A stretch of 64,000 nucleotides of DNA, taken from contig JAJXVH010000001.1 of NCBI GenBank assembly GCA_021782205.1, forward strand, positions 1 through 64,000, in the 5' to 3' direction. Source of the stretch: a bacterium (GTDB taxonomy: Bacteria > Elusimicrobiota > Elusimicrobia > UBA1565 > UBA9628). The position numbers and the translations under genes were made by a program. Of this stretch, positions 9,324 to 54,590 are shown piece by piece; the first letter of the stretch is position 1; each line of letters opens with the position of its first letter. The notes under the pieces are model-generated. The model was not told the DNA's origin. It saw nothing but the letters and a program-made list of their open reading frames with translations, and searched no databases.

Positions 9324-10673
9324 GTGAACAACACGAGCGCCGCGGAGCTTTGGAGGCAGGCCGTGGATCGCTTGCGCCCGGAGGTGGGCGATGAAAACGC
9401 CGACCTCTGGCTCAAGCCCATTGAGGCCATCGCGTTGGACGGCGGGGTCTTGACGCTAAAAGTGCCCAATAAATTTTTTTCCGAGGGAATCAAGGAACGA
9501 TACCAGAAACGATTGGTGGCAACTTTTCGCGACCTGTCTGGCGTAGAGATCGGTCTCGATTTTCGCGTCGAAAAGGACCTCACGCGCATGCTACCCTCCT
9601 CGGACCCCGTGCCGGAGGCCTCGCCGCAATCCGACTTCGCCCTCTCCGACCTGAACCCGCGCTACACCTTTGAGAATTTCGTCATCGGAGAATCAAACCG
9701 CCTGGCGCGCGCGACGGCCGAGTCGATCGCAAAATCTCCGGGAACTCAATACAACCCATATGTGATCTACGGGGGCGTCGGCCTGGGCAAAACCCATCTG
9801 ATGCACGCCATCGGCAACGCGATGCGGCGCCAGCATCCGAAAGCGCGCGTGCTCTACACCACCAGCGAGCAGTTCGTCAACGAATACATCTCCGCCGTGC
9901 AGAACAACGGCCTGGACGCCTTCCGCGCGAAATACCGCTCCCTCGATTGCCTGCTCATCGACGACATCCAGTTCCTGATCGCCAAGGAACGGTCCGAACA
10001 GGAATTTTTTCACACCTTCAACTCTCTGTTCGACTCACGCAAGCAGATCATCGTCAGCTCGGACCGCTCGCCCAAGGAGATGACCCCCCTGGAGCAGCGC
10101 CTGATTTCCCGGCTGGAATGGGGCTTCATCGCGGACATCAAGCCGCCGGATTTGGAAACGCGCATCGCGATTCTGCGTAAGAAGGGTGAATTGGAGCAGT
10201 TTTCCGTGCCCGACGACGTGATCCTTTTCGTGGCCTCCTCCGTGAAGACCAACGTACGGTCCTTGGAAGGCTCGCTGATCCGCTTGAAGGCATTTCAATC
10301 CATGACCGGCGCGCCTCTATCCGTCGACGAGGCGCGCGACATTCTGAAGGACACGATTGTCTACGACGACTCCAACCCGGTTCGGGCCGAGACCATCCTG
10401 CGCATCGTCGCGCAGAAATATTCGGTGGACGTCAAGGATCTTAAGGGACATCAGCGCACCGCCTCCATCACCTTGCCGCGCCAGGTGGCGATGTATCTTT
10501 CCTGCGTGATGACCGAACTTTCCTCCACGGACATCGGACGCGCATTCGGCGGCAAGGATCACTCGACGGTGCTGCATGCGCGCAAGAAAATAGAGAAGAA
10601 GGTCGAGGAAGATCCTTTCTTTCTTGAACTGATGAATAAATTACAGTCCGACATCAAGGCGGCGGAACGATGA
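9324..10673 (+). CDS. dnaA: chromosomal replication initiator protein DnaA
   Basis: AAA+ initiator that binds DnaA boxes and opens oriC. 449 residues from a GTG. Domain I (1-80) is followed by a short linker. The AAA+ domain has Walker A GGVGLGKTH (about 152-160) and Walker B LLIDDIQFL. The DNA-binding domain IV carries RQVAMYLS and the signature FGGKDHSTVLHA near the C-terminus. It sits directly after the putative origin, as in many bacteria. Confidence 0.98.
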   Translation: MNNTSAAELWRQAVDRLRPEVGDENADLWLKPIEAIALDGGVLTLKVPNKFFSEGIKERYQKRLVATFRDLSGVEIGLDFRVEKDLTRMLPSSDPVPEASPQSDFALSDLNPRYTFENFVIGESNRLARATAESIAKSPGTQYNPYVIYGGVGLGKTHLMHAIGNAMRRQHPKARVLYTTSEQFVNEYISAVQNNGLDAFRAKYRSLDCLLIDDIQFLIAKERSEQEFFHTFNSLFDSRKQIIVSSDRSPKEMTPLEQRLISRLEWGFIADIKPPDLETRIAILRKKGELEQFSVPDDVILFVASSVKTNVRSLEGSLIRLKAFQSMTGAPLSVDEARDILKDTIVYDDSNPVRAETILRIVAQKYSVDVKDLKGHQRTASITLPRQVAMYLSCVMTELSSTDIGRAFGGKDHSTVLHARKKIEKKVEEDPFFLELMNKLQSDIKAAER

Positions 10674-47095: not shown

Positions 47096-48625
47096 TCAGC
47101 GGGTCAGCGCCAGCCAGCGGGACAAAATCGAACGGGCCGTGGGAGTCAGACGCGTACGGTTGTAGGCGTCACCCAGTTTGCGGATCGCCTCGGACTGGGT
47201 CGGATAGGGATGGATGGTCGCCCCGATACCCGCCAGACCCACGCCGTTGTTCATCGCCACGGAAATCTCGCCGATCATGTCGCCGGCGTGGGCTGTGACG
47301 ACGGTCGCGCCCAGGATATTGTCGCCGCCGTCTTCGACCATGATCTTGACGAAGCCCTCGGTCTCACCATCCAGGACGGCTCGGTCCACTTCGTCTAGTT
47401 TCTGGACGAAGGTCCGAACCTTCAAACCTTTGGCCAGCGCTTCTTTTTCGTACAGCCCGACGTGCGCGATCTCGGGGTCGGTGTAGGTGCACCACGGGAT
47501 CGTCAGCGCGCTGAAGCGCTTGCGCCCGAGAAACAGCGCGTTTTGGATGACGATCCGTGCCGAAAAATCGGCGGTGTGCGTGAATTTTTGCGCCAAACAG
47601 ATGTCGCCAGCGGCGTAGATTTTTGGATTAGCGGTACGCAGATGGTCGTCGACCTTGACGCCGAACTTGTCGTAAGCCACCCCGACCTTGTCCAGATCCA
47701 AGCCTTCCACGTTGGGCGCTCGCCCAACGCCGACCAGGATCGCGTCGAACTCCTTCGTGCCGGGGGGGGCGTGCTTGCTCTTGAAACCGACTGTTTTGGC
47801 GTCGCCCGTTTTTTTCACGCTCTCGATGTCGACGCAGCATTGGAATTCGACGCCGTCGCGCGCCAGCGCCTTGCGCACGATCTCGGCTGCGTCTTGGTCT
47901 TCGCGTGTCAGCAGCCCGTGCATGGCCTCGAACAGAGTCACGCGCGAACCCAGACGCGCGAAGGCCTGAGCCAACTCCACGCCGATGGGGCCGGCGCCAA
48001 TGACGAGCAGGCGCTGGGGCAATTCGGTCAGGTTGAACACCGTCTCGTTGGTGAGCGCGCCGGCCGCCATAAGACCCGGGATGGGCAAGGCGACGGCGCG
48101 CGCGCCGGTAGCGATCACGGCTTTGGCGAAGCGCAAGGTCTTGCCCCCGACGGCGACGCCGTCGCCGCCCGTGAAGCGGCCTTGACCGACGAACACGTCC
48201 ACGCCCAGGCGTTTATAGCGCGCCGCCGAATCGTTTCCGCTGATCTGCGCGCGCAAGCGGCGCAGGCGTTCCATGACCGCCGGGAAATCGACGCGTACCC
48301 CGTCCACCTTGACGCCGTAGGCTTGCGCGCCGCGCGCCTGGGCGGCGGCGCGCGAGGCGCGGATCAGCGCCTTGGACGGAACGCAGCCTGCGTTGAGGCA
48401 GTCGCCGCCCATCAGATGCCGCTCTATCAAGGCGACCTTGGCGCCCAGACCCGCCGCACCGACGGCCGTCACAAGTCCCGCGGTGCCTCCGCCGATGACG
48501 ACCATATTGTAGCGGCCCGCCGGTTCGGGGTTCACCCAGCCTCCAGGGTGGACGTTGGCAAGCAGCGTGCGGTTATGTTCGTCCAGGGGCGAGATGAGAT
48601 CGGCGGCGTTCGTTTCTTGAGACAT
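47096..48625 (-). CDS. MerA-like FAD/NAD(P)-dependent disulfide oxidoreductase
   Basis: 509 residues from the ATG at 48625. FAD motif VVIGGGTAGLVTA, redox-active disulfide GGDCLNAGCVPSKALI, NAD(P) motif VIGAGPIGVELAQAFARLGS and HPYPTQSEAIR near the C-terminus. It resembles mercuric reductase, but lacks an N-terminal HMA domain and the C-terminal Cys-Cys pair that MerA needs to receive Hg(II); it ends SILSRWLALTR. It is therefore probably the VTT-associated MerA-like flavoprotein often found in rSAM/selenodomain or arsenosugar neighbourhoods. Coupled to the VTT gene by TGATG; last gene of the merR operon. Confidence 0.88.
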   Translation of the reverse strand: MSQETNAADLISPLDEHNRTLLANVHPGGWVNPEPAGRYNMVVIGGGTAGLVTAVGAAGLGAKVALIERHLMGGDCLNAGCVPSKALIRASRAAAQARGAQAYGVKVDGVRVDFPAVMERLRRLRAQISGNDSAARYKRLGVDVFVGQGRFTGGDGVAVGGKTLRFAKAVIATGARAVALPIPGLMAAGALTNETVFNLTELPQRLLVIGAGPIGVELAQAFARLGSRVTLFEAMHGLLTREDQDAAEIVRKALARDGVEFQCCVDIESVKKTGDAKTVGFKSKHAPPGTKEFDAILVGVGRAPNVEGLDLDKVGVAYDKFGVKVDDHLRTANPKIYAAGDICLAQKFTHTADFSARIVIQNALFLGRKRFSALTIPWCTYTDPEIAHVGLYEKEALAKGLKVRTFVQKLDEVDRAVLDGETEGFVKIMVEDGGDNILGATVVTAHAGDMIGEISVAMNNGVGLAGIGATIHPYPTQSEAIRKLGDAYNRTRLTPTARSILSRWLALTR

Positions 48626-49254
48626 CAGCCCTCCTTTTGATTCTTCGGCACCTTGGCGGACAGCGCGCGCTTGGCCGTGTGGCCCACCAGCCACGCCGCG
48701 ACCGCGGTGGCGACCAGGCCCGCGGCATACAGCGCCCACTCGGCGGGGGTGCGTGCGCGCGCGCCCGCGCCCGCGCGCGCGGCTTCGCCCGCGGCCGCGC
48801 CCAGATAGACGAATAAAAAAGTGCCCGGCATCATGCCGATCCAGGACGCGAGCGTGTACTCGCCGGCACCCACCGAAGTCAGGCCGTAGGCGTAGTTGAG
48901 CAGGCTAAACGGCAGCACCGGCGACAGGCGCGTCAGCAGCACCACTTTCCAGCCTTCATGGCCAACGGCCCCGGCGACCGCTGCGAACGCGGGAATATTT
49001 TCCAGACGCCTCGACACCCAGCCGCGCAGGAGGTGGCGGCCCGTCATGAACGAGGCCCACGCGCCCAGAGTCGAGCCGACGGAAACCAGGAAAAACCCCC
49101 TCCACAGTCCGAACGCCGCCCCCGCTCCCAGCGTCAGCACCGACCCGGGAAGCAACGCCACGCAGGCCAGGACATAGAGTCCCACGAAGGCCGCCCAGCC
49201 CGCGGGGCCCGCTGCGGCCGTCCACGCCAAGGCCGACGCGAGCGACGCCTTCAT
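48625..49254 (-). CDS. VTT/TVP38-TMEM64 family membrane protein
   Basis: 209 residues from the ATG at 49254, which overlaps the DUF547 stop as ATGA. About five hydrophobic segments. The VTT-domain motif appears as LPGSVLTLGAGAAFGLWRGF and the conserved LTRLSPVLPFSLLNYAYGLT, then GMMPGTFLFVYLG. The family includes lipid scramblase-like proteins; pairing with a MerA-like flavoprotein is a known bacterial neighbourhood. Confidence 0.9.
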   Translation of the reverse strand: MKASLASALAWTAAAGPAGWAAFVGLYVLACVALLPGSVLTLGAGAAFGLWRGFFLVSVGSTLGAWASFMTGRHLLRGWVSRRLENIPAFAAVAGAVGHEGWKVVLLTRLSPVLPFSLLNYAYGLTSVGAGEYTLASWIGMMPGTFLFVYLGAAAGEAARAGAGARARTPAEWALYAAGLVATAVAAWLVGHTAKRALSAKVPKNQKEG

Positions 49255-49985: not shown

Positions 49986-50022
49986 GAGGGTCAGTCTCGC
50001 CGCGGCCCTCAACGTTACACTT

Positions 50023-50529: not shown

Positions 50530-50787
50530 CTAGATCGAGCGCAGCCGCTCCAGGATGCGGCTCTTCAAGGCGTCGGCGCCCGGCGCGGCCGACGGCACCC
50601 AGGCGGCGCGAAGCGCCCGCGAGATCACGCGCAATTGGCGCGCGAAGCGCGAGCAATGCGCGCACATCGACAGATGCAGGCGCACGAGAAGGCGCTTCAT
50701 GCGGGGAACGGACTCAAGCTCCCCGGACGCGAGCAAGCCCGTCACCTCTCGGCACGAAGGCATGAGGCGCGCCATCAAGTTCATCAT
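50530..50787 (-). CDS. zinc-finger anti-sigma-like protein
   Basis: 85 residues from the ATG at 50787, overlapping the sigma gene stop as ATGA. CREVTGLLASGEL followed by HLSMCAHCSRF gives the HxxxCxxC zinc motif of ZAS anti-sigma factors. There is no membrane segment, so it should be a soluble sensor holding the adjacent ECF sigma factor; thiol-reactive metals would be expected to release it (inference). Confidence 0.82.
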   Translation of the reverse strand: MMNLMARLMPSCREVTGLLASGELESVPRMKRLLVRLHLSMCAHCSRFARQLRVISRALRAAWVPSAAPGADALKSRILERLRSI

Positions 50788-51395
50788 CGCGGCTTCTTTT
50801 CCCAATTCTTTTCCAGGCACTCCCGCAGCTTGAGCTTGGCCCGGTGCAGGAGCACCCGCAAGTTTGTCGCCGAGATCCGCAAAGCGTTACAGATCGCCTC
50901 CGGCACCTCACCCTCGACCTCTCTGAGAAAAAAGACCGCGCGTTGATCGTCGGAGAGCCCTTCGGCGCAACGCTCCACCCAGGCGCGGATCTCGCCGTCG
51001 AGCGCCGCGGCTTCCGGCCCGCGCGGAGGCCGCGCCCACATCCCGGCCGCGTCGAAGCGCGCGTCGAGCACCGCTTCGATGTCGTCGTGACTCTCCTCGC
51101 GCCGCGCTTTGGCGCGCAGGTTCGACGCCTTGTGATAAAGAATGCCGAACAGATAGGTGCGCACGCTCGACCGGCCCTCGAAACGGTCGAGCCCGGAAAG
51201 AAACGCGACGAAGGTCTCCTGGACGACCTCCTCGGCGTCGGAGCGGGAGAGGCCGATGGCCAAAGCGCCCGCCAGCAGCGTCGGGAGATTCTCGGAAACG
51301 AGCGCGTCGAGCGCCCCGGCCCGACGCGCTTTCAGATCCGCAACGCTCCACTCCCCCGTCTTTTGATCCGGCATGCCGCCGATGTTAGCATTCAC
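50784..51395 (-). CDS. ECF-type RNA polymerase sigma factor
   Basis: 203 residues from the GTG at 51395, which overlaps the preceding stop as GTGA; an ATG at 51374 is an alternative. Region 2 reads SDAEEVVQETFVAFLSGLDRFEGRSSVRTYLFGILYHKA (about 50-88, given here as the span; key DAEEVVQETF and TYLFGI). Region 4 contains LSDDQRAVFFLREVEG and SATNLRVLLHRAKLKLRECL. Its anti-sigma partner follows directly. An ECF pair inside a mer-type operon is unusual. Confidence 0.9.
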   Translation of the reverse strand: MNANIGGMPDQKTGEWSVADLKARRAGALDALVSENLPTLLAGALAIGLSRSDAEEVVQETFVAFLSGLDRFEGRSSVRTYLFGILYHKASNLRAKARREESHDDIEAVLDARFDAAGMWARPPRGPEAAALDGEIRAWVERCAEGLSDDQRAVFFLREVEGEVPEAICNALRISATNLRVLLHRAKLKLRECLEKNWEKKPR

Positions 51396-51871
51396 GCTCT
51401 CGTTTTGCGTTCCGCAGCGAGCCGCTTCACCTCCGCGGCCACGTTGCCCAGGCAGCAGGCGCCTTGCGGGTTCATGCGCTCGCAGTCGCAGCGTCCCGCG
51501 TCGATCTCATGCTTGATGCGGACCGGAATGTCCGTGACACTGCGCGCGGCCAAGTCGCGGCGGATGTCGCCGCGCTTGAAGTCGAAGCAATAGCAGACGT
51601 TGACCTCGTCTCCCGGGTCTTTCTGGGTCACGGCGCGAAGGGTCTCGCCTTTGCGCACGATGGCACCGCCCGAAAAATAGACGACCGCGCAATCGGGGTT
51701 GGCGCAGAAGCCCGCCACGTCGCCGAATTTGGCGCGCGCGTCCGGCGCGAGCTGGCGGTCCAAGGTCTCCCGGCCCACCGTTCGACCGCGCTTCGCGCAG
51801 TCAGGGCATGTCCGCGCGGCGGCGGGCAGGCCGCAGCACGCCTCGTGTTCATCAGGAGCGTGGTTTTCCAT
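51392..51871 (-). CDS. CopZ-like iron-sulfur/zinc metallochaperone domain protein
   Basis: 159 residues with 12 or more cysteines. N-terminal HEACCGLPAAARTCPDCAKRG, then FCANPDCAVVYF, VNVCYCFDF and CDCERMNPQGACCLGNV. This pattern matches the N-terminal [2Fe-2S]/zinc domain of CopZ-type metallochaperones (as in Archaeoglobus), here without the HMA domain. The HMA domain it lacks is present in the neighbouring MerT fusion, so the two may act together. The start overlaps that gene by 20 nt. Confidence 0.85.
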   Translation of the reverse strand: MENHAPDEHEACCGLPAAARTCPDCAKRGRTVGRETLDRQLAPDARAKFGDVAGFCANPDCAVVYFSGGAIVRKGETLRAVTQKDPGDEVNVCYCFDFKRGDIRRDLAARSVTDIPVRIKHEIDAGRCDCERMNPQGACCLGNVAAEVKRLAAERKTRA

Positions 51872-52454
51872 GGTTTCCTCCGTCCCCGAGCAGTTCGGCC
51901 TTGTAGCCCGCGGCCGCGACGGCCGCGATTACGGCGTGGGCGTCGGCCTTGCCGTCGGAGACGACGCTGGCGCTTCCCGCGGAGAAATCGACGCTCGCGG
52001 AAAGCACGCCCGGGACCTTGTCCAAGGCGCGCTCGATTTCCGGAACGCACGCCGCGCAGTCCATGCCCGAGACCTTGAACGCGAGGACTTGCGCTCCGAC
52101 AGGGACCGCGGGGCGGCCGCCGGCGAACAGTCGCGCCGACCAGTTCGGGAACGTGGCCAGCGCCGCGGCCAGAACGGCCGTCGCCCAGAGACCGGCCTTC
52201 ACGCCCGCGCCGGTGGAGCGCCGTTCGCAGCTTTCAGCGGCGCAGGAAACCTTTCGCTTGCGGTAGGCCTGATAGAACGTGACGGCCAGCAGCACTCCGG
52301 TCATCGCCAGGAAAAGCGGTCGGTATTTGGCCAGACCCGCGGCCAGTCCCAAGCTTCCCAGCCCCAGACCGGTCAGAAGCAGCGGGCCCAGGCAGCAGGC
52401 CGAGGCGAGCCCGGCCGAAGCCAGCGCCGCCATGACGGAGAATTTTCTATCCAT
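51852..52454 (-). CDS. merT: MerT-like mercuric ion transporter fused to an HMA domain
   Basis: Inner-membrane Hg(II) uptake protein with a built-in MerP-like domain. 200 residues. The first membrane helix carries the Cys20-Cys21 pair (ASACCLGPLLL). A cytoplasmic loop has Cys71 and Cys76. A third hydrophobic helix lies at about 85-102. The C-terminal HMA domain (about 122-190) has GMDCAACVPEI with Cys133 and Cys136. The fusion replaces separate merT and merP. It overlaps merR by 8 nt. Confidence 0.9.
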   Translation of the reverse strand: MDRKFSVMAALASAGLASACCLGPLLLTGLGLGSLGLAAGLAKYRPLFLAMTGVLLAVTFYQAYRKRKVSCAAESCERRSTGAGVKAGLWATAVLAAALATFPNWSARLFAGGRPAVPVGAQVLAFKVSGMDCAACVPEIERALDKVPGVLSASVDFSAGSASVVSDGKADAHAVIAAVAAAGYKAELLGDGGNHGKPRS

Positions 52455-52866
52455 GGGACGGCCTCCCTAACTCGAGACTTTCCAGTATCGGGCACAAGTC
52501 CGTGGTTCCGCGCACGGCGCAGGTCTTGAGCAGGCGCCGCAGAGTGCTTTCGATCGCCCTCAATCCCGCGATCTTCTCGCGCACCATCGCAAGCCGCGCC
52601 CGGGCCTGCCCCTGGACCGACGCGCAGCGGCTTTTCCGGTCGACGCGCAGGCGCAGGAGCTTGGATATTTCATCGAGGGTGAACCCCAGCGCTTGAGCGC
52701 TCTTGACAAAGCGGATGACTTGCACGGCCTGCGGCCCATAGAGCCGATAGCCCGACTGAGTGCGTCGCTCGGGTGTCAGGAGCCCGCGCTTCTCGTAATA
52801 CCGGACGGTCTGAAGATTGACTCCGGCCAGGCGCGCGACGCGGCCGACGGTCAGTGGTTCGCTCAC
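52447..52866 (-). CDS. merR: MerR, mercury-responsive regulator
   Basis: 139 residues from the GTG at 52866. The winged helix is TVGRVARLAGVNLQTVRYYE followed by GYRLYGPQAVQVIRFVKSAQ. Cys81, Cys116 and Cys125 reproduce the spacing of the three Hg-binding cysteines of Tn501 MerR (82, 117, 126), including SRCASV and DLCPILESLE. It is therefore probably a true Hg(II) sensor. Unlike classical mer operons, merR is here the first gene of the structural operon. It starts 6 nt after its -10 element. Confidence 0.93.
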   Translation of the reverse strand: MSEPLTVGRVARLAGVNLQTVRYYEKRGLLTPERRTQSGYRLYGPQAVQVIRFVKSAQALGFTLDEISKLLRLRVDRKSRCASVQGQARARLAMVREKIAGLRAIESTLRRLLKTCAVRGTTDLCPILESLELGRPSHG

Positions 52867-52872
52867 AGCCTC

Positions 52873-52904
52873 ATTATAGACCCTATACCCAGGTATCGGG
52901 TCAA
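52873..52904 (-). promoter_or_regulatory. MerR-type promoter of the merR operon (20-bp spacer)
   Basis: Minus-strand TTGACC (52904-52899), 20-bp spacer, TATAAT (52878-52873), then 6 nt to the GTG. The stretched spacer is the hallmark of MerR-activated promoters. It contains GATACC and GGGTCTA as an imperfect inverted pair, in the same positions as in the divergent promoter. Confidence 0.8.
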
Positions 52905-52940
52905 TGGGTGATTTTTAGGAATTGTGGGGATAAACGGGTC

Positions 52941-52972
52941 TTGACTTGATACCAAGGTCCGGGGTCTACAAT
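52941..52972 (+). promoter_or_regulatory. second MerR-type promoter, driving the 28-residue Cys-rich gene
   Basis: Plus-strand TTGACT (52941-52946), 20-bp spacer, TACAAT (52967-52972). Aligned with the merR promoter, both have TTGAC, GATACC starting at position 8 and GGGTCTA ending at position 28 of a 32-bp element. The start site should be near 52979, leaving a 45-nt leader with a GGAGG ribosome site. Confidence 0.8.
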
Positions 52973-53023
52973 GCCGGCAGGCCCCGCCAGTCCCGCGACG
53001 CGGAGGGTCAGGAGGTGATTGCG

Positions 53024-53110
53024 ATGACTGAATCCAAATGCTGCTGCCGAGACGGCTGCCGGTGTTGCGAGACGTACTCGTGCTGCCGCGAAAGCGAAAA
53101 GAAGGCCTGA
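53024..53110 (+). CDS. 28-residue Cys-rich metallothionein-like microprotein
   Basis: Translates as 28 residues, MTESKCCCRDGCRCCETYSC followed by CRESEKKA, with cysteines at 6, 7, 8, 12, 14, 15, 20 and 21 (29% Cys). A strong GGAGG ribosome site (53011-53015) sits 8 nt before the ATG, a MerR-type promoter lies upstream and a 13-bp hairpin follows, so this looks like a complete small transcription unit. CCC, CRCC and CC clusters are those expected of a soft-metal (Hg, As, Cu, Cd) binding peptide; the flanks are charged, with no signal peptide. I recognise no family. It is too short for most gene callers. Confidence 0.72.
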   Translation: MTESKCCCRDGCRCCETYSCCRESEKKA

Positions 53111-53117
53111 GTTGCGC

Positions 53118-53151
53118 GGGAGCGCCGGCGGCTTCTTTCGCCGGCGCTCCC
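53118..53151 (+). terminator. hairpin after the Cys-rich microprotein gene
   Basis: A perfect 13-bp stem pairs GGGAGCGCCGGCG (53118-53130) with CGCCGGCGCTCCC (53139-53151) around an 8-nt loop GCTTCTTT. Only a weak T content follows (GTCTCAA), so it may end or attenuate transcription and protect the short mRNA. The following 140 nt to the PiT gene hold no clear gene. Confidence 0.6.
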
Positions 53152-53291
53152 GTCTCAACGGTGATCGCCGGCGGTTCATCGAGCTTAAGCGTGTAAACTC
53201 CGCTGCTACAGTCGACTCCTATAGCCCAGCCAAGCAGCCGTAACAAAATCCGATTTCCCGGGACAGACATGCCGAAGAGCGGGAGGCGATC

Positions 53292-54278
53292 ATGAACGCG
53301 GCGACGGGTCTGGGCCTTGCGGCGGCGACGGGACTTGCCTTCGTCAACGGAGCCAACGACATCTCGAAGTCGATCGCCACGCTGGTCGGCAGCGGCGAGT
53401 CGAGCTACCGGCGCGCCGTCGTCTTGACGGCCCTGGCGACCGCGGCCGGAGCCGTGCTCGCCTCGGCCTGGGCGGTCAAGCTGACTCTGCTGTTCACGCA
53501 CGGTATGCTGTCGCCGCAGGTCCAGCTCAATGAGCTCTTCGCCATGGCGGTGCTGGCCGGAGCCATCGGCTGGGTGGCGCTGGCCAGCCGTTTCGGCTGG
53601 CCGGTGTCGACCACGCACGCGATAGTCGGCAGCGTGGTTCTCACCGGAGCGTACGCCTTCGGCTTCGACAGCGTGTTATGGTCCAGCCTGACCCGGAAGG
53701 TCGCGGTTCCCTTGCTGCTGTCTCCGCTCGTCGCCTACGGCGTGTCGATTCTTTTCTTCCGGGGTCTGAACTGGATTTGCCGCGAAAGATACTGCCTGAA
53801 TTGTCATTGGTCTCACTGGATGAGCGCGATGACAAGCGGTTTCGCGCGCGGACTCAACGACACCCCGAAGATCGCCGCGCTGGGACTGGCGTTCTATGGC
53901 TTGGCGGATGCGGCCGCGAGCGTGGCCCTGCGCTGGTTCTTCCTGGCGCTGGCAGCCGCGATGGCAGCCGGCGCGATCACGATGGGATTCAAGACGACCG
54001 AGACCCTTGCCGTCGAAGTGATCGCGATGGACCACCTTGAGGGCTTCGCCGCCAATTTATCGACGACGCTTCTCGTCGTCTTCGGTGCGACGCAGGGTTG
54101 GCCCATGTCCACCACGCATGTCGCCGGCGGCGGGATCATGGGCATCGGCGCGCGCCGGGGCGGCAAGGCCCTGCGCTGGAAAACGGTTGCCGAGATCGCC
54201 TTCGCCTGGGCGCTCACGGTGCCCGCGGCGGGACTGCTTGGCGTTGCCTCCTACTGGCTGCTTCGCCGCTGCGGCTGA
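53292..54278 (+). CDS. PiT-family phosphate (arsenate) permease
   Basis: Membrane Pi:cation symporter family. 328 residues, about ten hydrophobic segments. The two inverted signature repeats are FVNGANDISKSIATLVGSG (18-36) and RGLNDTPKIAALGLAFYG, each followed by WPVSTTHA or WPMSTTHV. PiT genes with this layout are found beside arsM-arsS, where they may import arsenate or phosphate. Cys-rich ICRERYCLNC in the central loop is unusual and could bind metal. Confidence 0.9.
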   Translation: MNAATGLGLAAATGLAFVNGANDISKSIATLVGSGESSYRRAVVLTALATAAGAVLASAWAVKLTLLFTHGMLSPQVQLNELFAMAVLAGAIGWVALASRFGWPVSTTHAIVGSVVLTGAYAFGFDSVLWSSLTRKVAVPLLLSPLVAYGVSILFFRGLNWICRERYCLNCHWSHWMSAMTSGFARGLNDTPKIAALGLAFYGLADAAASVALRWFFLALAAAMAAGAITMGFKTTETLAVEVIAMDHLEGFAANLSTTLLVVFGATQGWPMSTTHVAGGGIMGIGARRGGKALRWKTVAEIAFAWALTVPAAGLLGVASYWLLRRCG

Positions 54279-54346: not shown

Positions 54347-54514
54347 ATGGAAGACAATGCACTGACCTGCAGCCGCTGCAACATGAATGCGGAATCCGGC
54401 CAGACGGGCTGGAAAAAATGCGATAAATGCGGAGAATTGTGGTGTCCAAAGTGCGCCCCGGTCGAGGACCGGTGCTCGAACTGCATCGGTGGAATCCTAA
54501 GACCCACGCCATGA
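54347..54514 (+). CDS. 55-residue four-CxxC zinc-ribbon microprotein
   Basis: 55 residues from the ATG at 54347 with a GGAGGAGA ribosome site. Four CxxC pairs are visible: CSRC (8-11), CDKC (25-28), CPKC (34-37) and CSNC (45-48), enough for two zinc ribbons or one iron-sulfur site. The pairs are well spaced (GWKKCDKCGELWCPKC), unlike the clustered cysteines of the 28-residue protein. It lies between PiT and the aquaporin in the same direction. No family named with confidence. Confidence 0.75.
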   Translation: MEDNALTCSRCNMNAESGQTGWKKCDKCGELWCPKCAPVEDRCSNCIGGILRPTP

Positions 54515-54590
54515 ACGGCCGGCGCAGGCACCCGTTGTAACGGATCGCCTCCGGCGCGGACATATTGCGGACGGCGGAGGGAGGAAGCGG

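Follow-up and report, generated by a model that had tools for sequence, protein, structure and literature searches.

A mercury-type MerR regulator probably acts on two back-to-back promoters in the genome of a bacterium of the Elusimicrobia (UBA9628), one in front of its own operon and one in front of a gene for a cysteine-rich microprotein, and the arsenosugar genes beyond the latter would be transcribed from promoters of their own, of the type recognised by ECF sigma factors. The window analysed is a stretch of 64,000 nucleotides (contig JAJXVH010000001.1, positions 1 to 64,000), and coordinates refer to it unless a locus of another genome is named. According to the proposed mechanism, a single Hg-type MerR would control both promoters with 20-bp spacers: the apo-protein, sitting between the -35 and -10 hexamers, would keep RNA polymerase inactive, and the metal-bound form would untwist the over-long spacer and so activate transcription. 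Operator 1 would serve merR, merTP and the gene of a CopZ-type chaperone and, probably, via overlapping genes, the ECF sigma/anti-sigma pair and the genes beyond it. Operator 2, the weaker and lineage-specific one, would serve only the 28-aa cysteine-rich microprotein, its transcript being ended at a strong hairpin.

Two divergent MerR-type elements

Two 32-bp elements that point away from each other were located upstream of merR:

52873-52904, minus strand: MerR promoter/operator 1, of the merR operon; TTGACC-N20-TATAAT with the 24-bp near-perfect palindrome GACCCgATACCtgGGTATaGGGTC
52941-52972, plus strand: MerR promoter/operator 2; TTGACT-N20-TACAAT with an intact left half-site and a right half-site whose core is degenerate

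Operator 1, read from 52904 to 52873, is TTGACCCGATACCTGGGTATAGGGTCTATAAT, and operator 2, read from 52941 to 52972, is TTGACTTGATACCAAGGTCCGGGGTCTACAAT. The two are identical at 24 of the 32 positions, sharing TTGAC at positions 1-5, GATACC at 8-13 and GGGTCTA at 22-28, and the spacer is exactly 20 bp in both. The original prediction was thus exact as to the place of the elements, their common motifs and their spacers; its description of the half-sites as matching is right as far as the left halves and the outer GGGTC go, whereas the right halves have different cores, GTAT in operator 1 and GTCC in operator 2. The likeness is confined to the 32 bp, and the flanks do not resemble each other.

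A search of the whole 3.09-Mb genome with up to three mismatches returned these two elements as sole matches, and none in a reversed control. With a scoring matrix that drew on 27 merR promoters from other genomes, the genome's own element being excluded, the per-position chance was 1.3e-16 for operator 1 and 9.8e-12 for operator 2, the latter corresponding to 6e-5 expected per genome. When the hexamers were removed and only the operator columns (8-25) were scored, operator 2 had p = 3e-6 per position, with about 8e-4 matches expected in the 119-bp intergenic region. A good promoter whose spacer happens to be 20 bp long would thus not explain operator 2.

Comparison with relatives (294 genomes in a protein search, the 56 genomes of the order in a pattern search) supports operator 1 as a conserved MerR promoter/operator and as the strong, ancestral site of the pair. 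The element occurs in 24 of the 56 genomes, this one included, and the 29 sites of this type in the other 23 all lie upstream of merR, which is truncated in G112. Its consensus in the order is TTGACTCTATACYTAGGTATAGGGTYTATACT, a 9-4-9 palindrome within the 20-bp spacer that is kept together with the regulator gene; in the window 10 of the 12 pairs around the operator centre are retained, and merR promoters score 50.8-61.5 bits with the matrix. The expectation that the merR operon stands under its own MerR promoter is supported by the same element preceding merR in those 23 genomes and by the predicted Hg type of the regulator. In G112, positions 9679-10268(-) of locus L066 hold a MerR box and, behind it, an N-terminal merR fragment that continues directly as the C-terminal part of a PiT gene, which is either a deletion junction or an assembly artefact.

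In Tn501, too, merR and merTPCAD are transcribed divergently from a single intergenic region under MerR control. There, one operator with a 19-bp spacer is shared, whereas here there are two separate operators with 20-bp spacers, their dyad centres 64 bp apart, and merR lies on the activated side.

The second operator and the cysteine-rich microprotein

Operator 2 is followed by a compact unit, in which the predicted transcription start (near 52979), the ribosome binding site, the reading frame and a hairpin fall within 180 bp:

53010-53015, plus strand: Shine-Dalgarno sequence AGGAGG, 8 nt ahead of the ATG at 53024, read directly from the DNA
53024-53110, plus strand: cysteine-rich microprotein of 28 aa, MTESKCCCRDGCRCCETYSCCRESEKKA, with 8 cysteines (29% Cys)
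53117-53152, plus strand: hairpin with a 14-bp perfect stem, 6 nt past the microprotein stop, with no U-tract; putative terminator or insulator

The hairpin (z -4.5) is the longest perfect one in the window, and transcription is predicted to terminate there. The microprotein had no match in Pfam and NCBIfam and no convincing homologue in the 294 genomes or plasmids. Reading frames preceded by a Shine-Dalgarno sequence and encoding at least 6 cysteines and at least 15% Cys were sought in the DNA around MerR loci. The 0.155 Mb of strand lying up to 4 kb downstream of a MerR box, on the strand of the box, holds three of them, and the other 1.16 Mb holds none (p = 0.0016, a value calculated once the first case, one of the three, was known). 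Besides the microprotein gene of the window, the cysteine-rich frames are:

L044, 3925-4098, plus strand: 57 aa, between merTP and merA in G160
L046, 12458-12535, plus strand: 25 aa, after merA in G094
L049, 8983-9081, minus strand: a fourth frame, outside the count behind the p-value, downstream of merR in G094

These products and that of the window are too short and too different to be called homologous, but their position supports the view that the mer units of this group recurrently include cysteine-rich microproteins, and those of the relatives might possibly be metallothionein-like mer accessory proteins. As two other genomes have such microproteins in their mer units, a metallothionein-like peptide is likely to be under MerR control, and the microprotein of the window is most likely a metallothionein-like, presumably metal-binding scavenger of a thiophilic metal. 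A comparable arrangement is found in Pseudomonas aeruginosa, where CadR activates the small cysteine-rich, metallothionein-like Zrd from its own MerR-type promoter, besides a transport gene (PMC12301328). Both systems would combine a MerR-family sensor with a small cysteine-rich protein under its own MerR-type promoter, here a predicted one. However, zrd, which encodes two zinc ribbons and is Cd/Zn-responsive, lies elsewhere in its genome (PMC12301328), whereas the gene of the window adjoins merR, its 28 residues form mostly CC and CCC motifs, and the metal is presumed to be Hg.

Operator 2 scores 29.9 bits, about 20 bits under the merR promoters, because the core of its right half-site is GTCC and not GTAT, a departure from every relative. 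Six of its 12 pairs around the operator centre are retained, the ACC-NN-GGT core is kept, and its 20-bp spacer separates a good -35 from a good -10 hexamer. Among the remaining 55 genomes of the order the pattern search revealed no second element, and the intergenic DNA, when searched against the order, gave only short chance matches besides its own. When 84,980 species were scanned for a strong element accompanied by a divergent GTCAA at 15-45 bp, two candidates came up, and both were rejected as paired elements on inspection: the first, next to an ArsR-type gene, does not have the half-site, and the second is an ordinary promoter whose spacing is roughly 17-18 bp. Operator 2 and the microprotein form a lineage-specific unit, present in one genome only. 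G187 and G299 have the order merR-merTP-copZ-..-sigma without operator 2, in G299 with the gene order of the window matched through the sigma gene, and no cysteine-rich reading frame was found in either. Paired promoters were thus not found in relatives; since the relatives without operator 2 are also without the microprotein at this place, this is not the loss from genomes keeping the genes that the original prediction had named as speaking against it.

The low score and the deviating core may reflect poor binding or a decaying duplicate. In the latter case operator 2 would be a non-functional or fading copy of the merR promoter, and the cysteine-rich frame would be transcribed weakly, constitutively or not at all. 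The occurrence in a single genome, the degenerate right core and the gap between 29.9 bits and the range of the merR promoters fit such decay, but the similarity stops at the edges of the 32 bp, and the hexamers, the 20-bp spacing, the left half-site and the outer GGGTC have been retained amid other changes, which is the pattern of a promoter that is being kept. It also leads to a reading frame with an ideal Shine-Dalgarno sequence and a terminator-like hairpin, of a kind recurrent in mer units, and we regard decay as unlikely. Activation of operator 2 by MerR, and with it a response of the microprotein together with the merR operon, is plausible from the matrix match, the Shine-Dalgarno sequence, the hairpin and the association of microORFs with MerR boxes, all of them features of sequence.

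The regulator, its operon and the probable metal

The genes predicted to be served by operator 1 are as follows:

52447-52866, minus strand: merR, 139 aa, with a GTG start and three metal-binding cysteines (81, 116, 125)
51852-52454, minus strand: merT-HMA (merTP-like) fusion, overlapping merR
51392-51871, minus strand: CopZ N-terminal-type metallochaperone (NF047645, above cut-off), overlapping merTP
50784-51395, minus strand: ECF sigma factor, its start codon overlapping the stop of the CopZ-type gene (GTGA)
50530-50820, minus strand: anti-sigma factor with HxxxCxxC, the zinc anti-sigma motif

The GTG start of merR lies 6 nt past the -10 hexamer (52864-52878(-)), and the merR mRNA is probably leaderless. 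Most relatives, unlike the window and L033 (G158), have a merR leader with a Shine-Dalgarno sequence. The ECF sigma gene is probably carried on the merR transcript because of its GTGA overlap with the CopZ-type gene.

The regulator possesses the MerR-type N-terminal HTH and the dimerisation helix, and the closest solved regulators by sequence are the MerR proteins of Tn501 (5crl) and Bacillus (4ua1). Its C81, C116 and C125 align with C82, C117 and C126 of Tn501 MerR, as well as with the Bacillus protein, and are kept in relatives. A link to mer functions is also given by the adjoining merT-HMA fusion. The regulator is most likely MerR-like and of the Hg type, with mercury as presumed effector. 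It scored 122.1 bits against TIGR02051, which is below the curated cut-off of 150.85 and still the best among MerR-family equivalogs. MerA above the curated cut-off is encoded in the operons of the four relatives checked, and profile scoring of the own genome gave none above it. As MerA is missing above cut-off here and MerR stays below that of TIGR02051, mercury is the most likely metal rather than a proven one. The product of 47096-48739(-), a possible mercuric reductase, was rejected as MerA (376 vs a cut-off of 454) and fits the FAD oxidoreductase NF004991 (778 vs 620). Close homologues of this oxidoreductase occur in relatives near sigma, Trx, DUF547 and VTT genes.

The MerT-type partner gene, the MerA encoded in the operons of relatives with the same operator, the cysteine pattern and CPI motif as in Hg MerR, and the even-centred 9-4-9 geometry as in Firmicute MerR all speak for mercury. 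They make it distinctly unlikely that the regulator is instead a ZntR-like or broad thiophilic-metal sensor, which would leave the architecture the same, even though the NCBIfam scores for MerR (122 bits) and ZntR (115-119 bits) are close and all below cut-off, the genome is without MerA, and the outer operator GACTC..GGGT is like published CadR sites (PMC12301328).

As a mercury regulator, the protein would belong to a system close to the Firmicute type of mer operon (Bacillus RC607, S. aureus pI258 type), in which merR is likewise first in its own, autoregulated operon and has three metal-binding cysteines. The operator of that type, ACCGTGTAC-4-GTACAGGGT, is also a 9-4-9 palindrome inside a 20-bp spacer (PMC1526738). 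In contrast to that type, the half-site core is GTAT instead of GTAC, the operon continues to a CopZ-type chaperone and an ECF sigma pair in a genome with no merA, and there is a second, divergent MerR-type promoter.

The arsenosugar genes and their predicted promoters

Beyond the microprotein gene, the plus strand encodes a PiT transporter, an aquaporin, ArsS, a methyltransferase and two glycosyltransferases. The features that bear on their transcription are:

53292-54278, plus strand: PiT-family transporter, the first gene on the arsenosugar side, outside the MerR unit
53239-53267, plus strand: predicted ECF-type promoter CGTAACA-N16-GACAGA, upstream of the PiT gene
54536-54564, plus strand: predicted ECF-type promoter TGTAACG-N16-GACATA, upstream of aquaporin-arsS
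49991-50019, minus strand: predicted ECF-type promoter TGTAACG-N16-GACTGA, upstream of DUF547-type/VTT/FAD-oxidoreductase genes
50863-50891, minus strand: a further match to the motif, within the sigma gene at its 3' end, recurring in relatives

The last match was not counted as a promoter, as it may merely reflect conserved coding of sigma region 4. A 55-aa zinc-finger-like protein without a family match is encoded at 54347-54514(+) and is 62-70% conserved in L042, L045, L047 and L061.

The pattern BGTAACR-N16-GACWNA has exactly four matches in the genome (53239, 54536, 50019(-) and 50891(-)), all of them in this locus. A stricter ECF motif gave 23 sites in 10 of the 56 genomes, mostly on contigs with sigma or arsenosugar genes, and one match overall in the reversed control; relatives' sites of the motif TGTAACR-N16-GACTYA are at L187, L191-L193, L034, L045, L048 and L054. 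DNA resembling TGTAAC-N17-GACTCA stands upstream of PiT here and in most close relatives, and the PiT homologues of relatives are preceded by the ECF-type promoter and by no MerR box. In G222 and G283 the sigma and PiT genes are direct divergent neighbours, with no merR between them. The simplest reading is that the merR cassette sits inside a pre-existing sigma/arsenosugar locus. The sigma factor encoded at 50784-51395 appears to be the one that uses the ECF-type sites as promoters, and the arsenosugar genes are almost certainly driven by a separate, sigma-factor-dependent promoter. A literature search found no description of an ECF sigma regulon of arsenosugar loci.

The extension of the operator 2 response to the arsenosugar genes, which had been offered as a possibility, is not supported because of the 14-bp hairpin after the microprotein and the genes' own ECF-type promoters, conserved in relatives, and direct co-induction from operator 2 is unlikely. 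It is very improbable that operator 2 drives both the microprotein and the PiT/arsenosugar genes by read-through, with mercury directly inducing arsenosugar synthesis, since PiT, for all that it starts on the same strand 182 bp past the end of the microprotein frame, lies behind that hairpin, has an ECF-type promoter as aquaporin-arsS does, and shares this promoter, without a MerR box, with its homologues in relatives. In the preferred reading, the arsenosugar operon would be transcribed from its own ECF-sigma promoters, and MerR would influence it only indirectly, through a presumed induction of the sigma gene at the end of the merR operon. Sigma levels could thereby rise in response to mercury, though sigma activity would still be gated by the anti-sigma factor encoded alongside.

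A broader proposal, which we put forward tentatively, is that the mercury MerR regulons of this lineage have taken in metallothionein-like microproteins (25-57 aa) repeatedly, here via a newly evolved second divergent MerR promoter, together with a merR-operon ECF sigma factor governing the arsenosugar locus, so that a cascade might run from mercury via MerR and the ECF sigma factor to arsenic metabolism. The locus would represent a MerR regulon that has gained a second promoter ahead of a previously undescribed cysteine-rich microprotein, and thus a testable case of the recruitment of a metal-scavenging peptide into the mercury response. Two layers of control, MerR for the mercury genes and an ECF sigma factor for the arsenosugar genes, would be physically interlocked in it.
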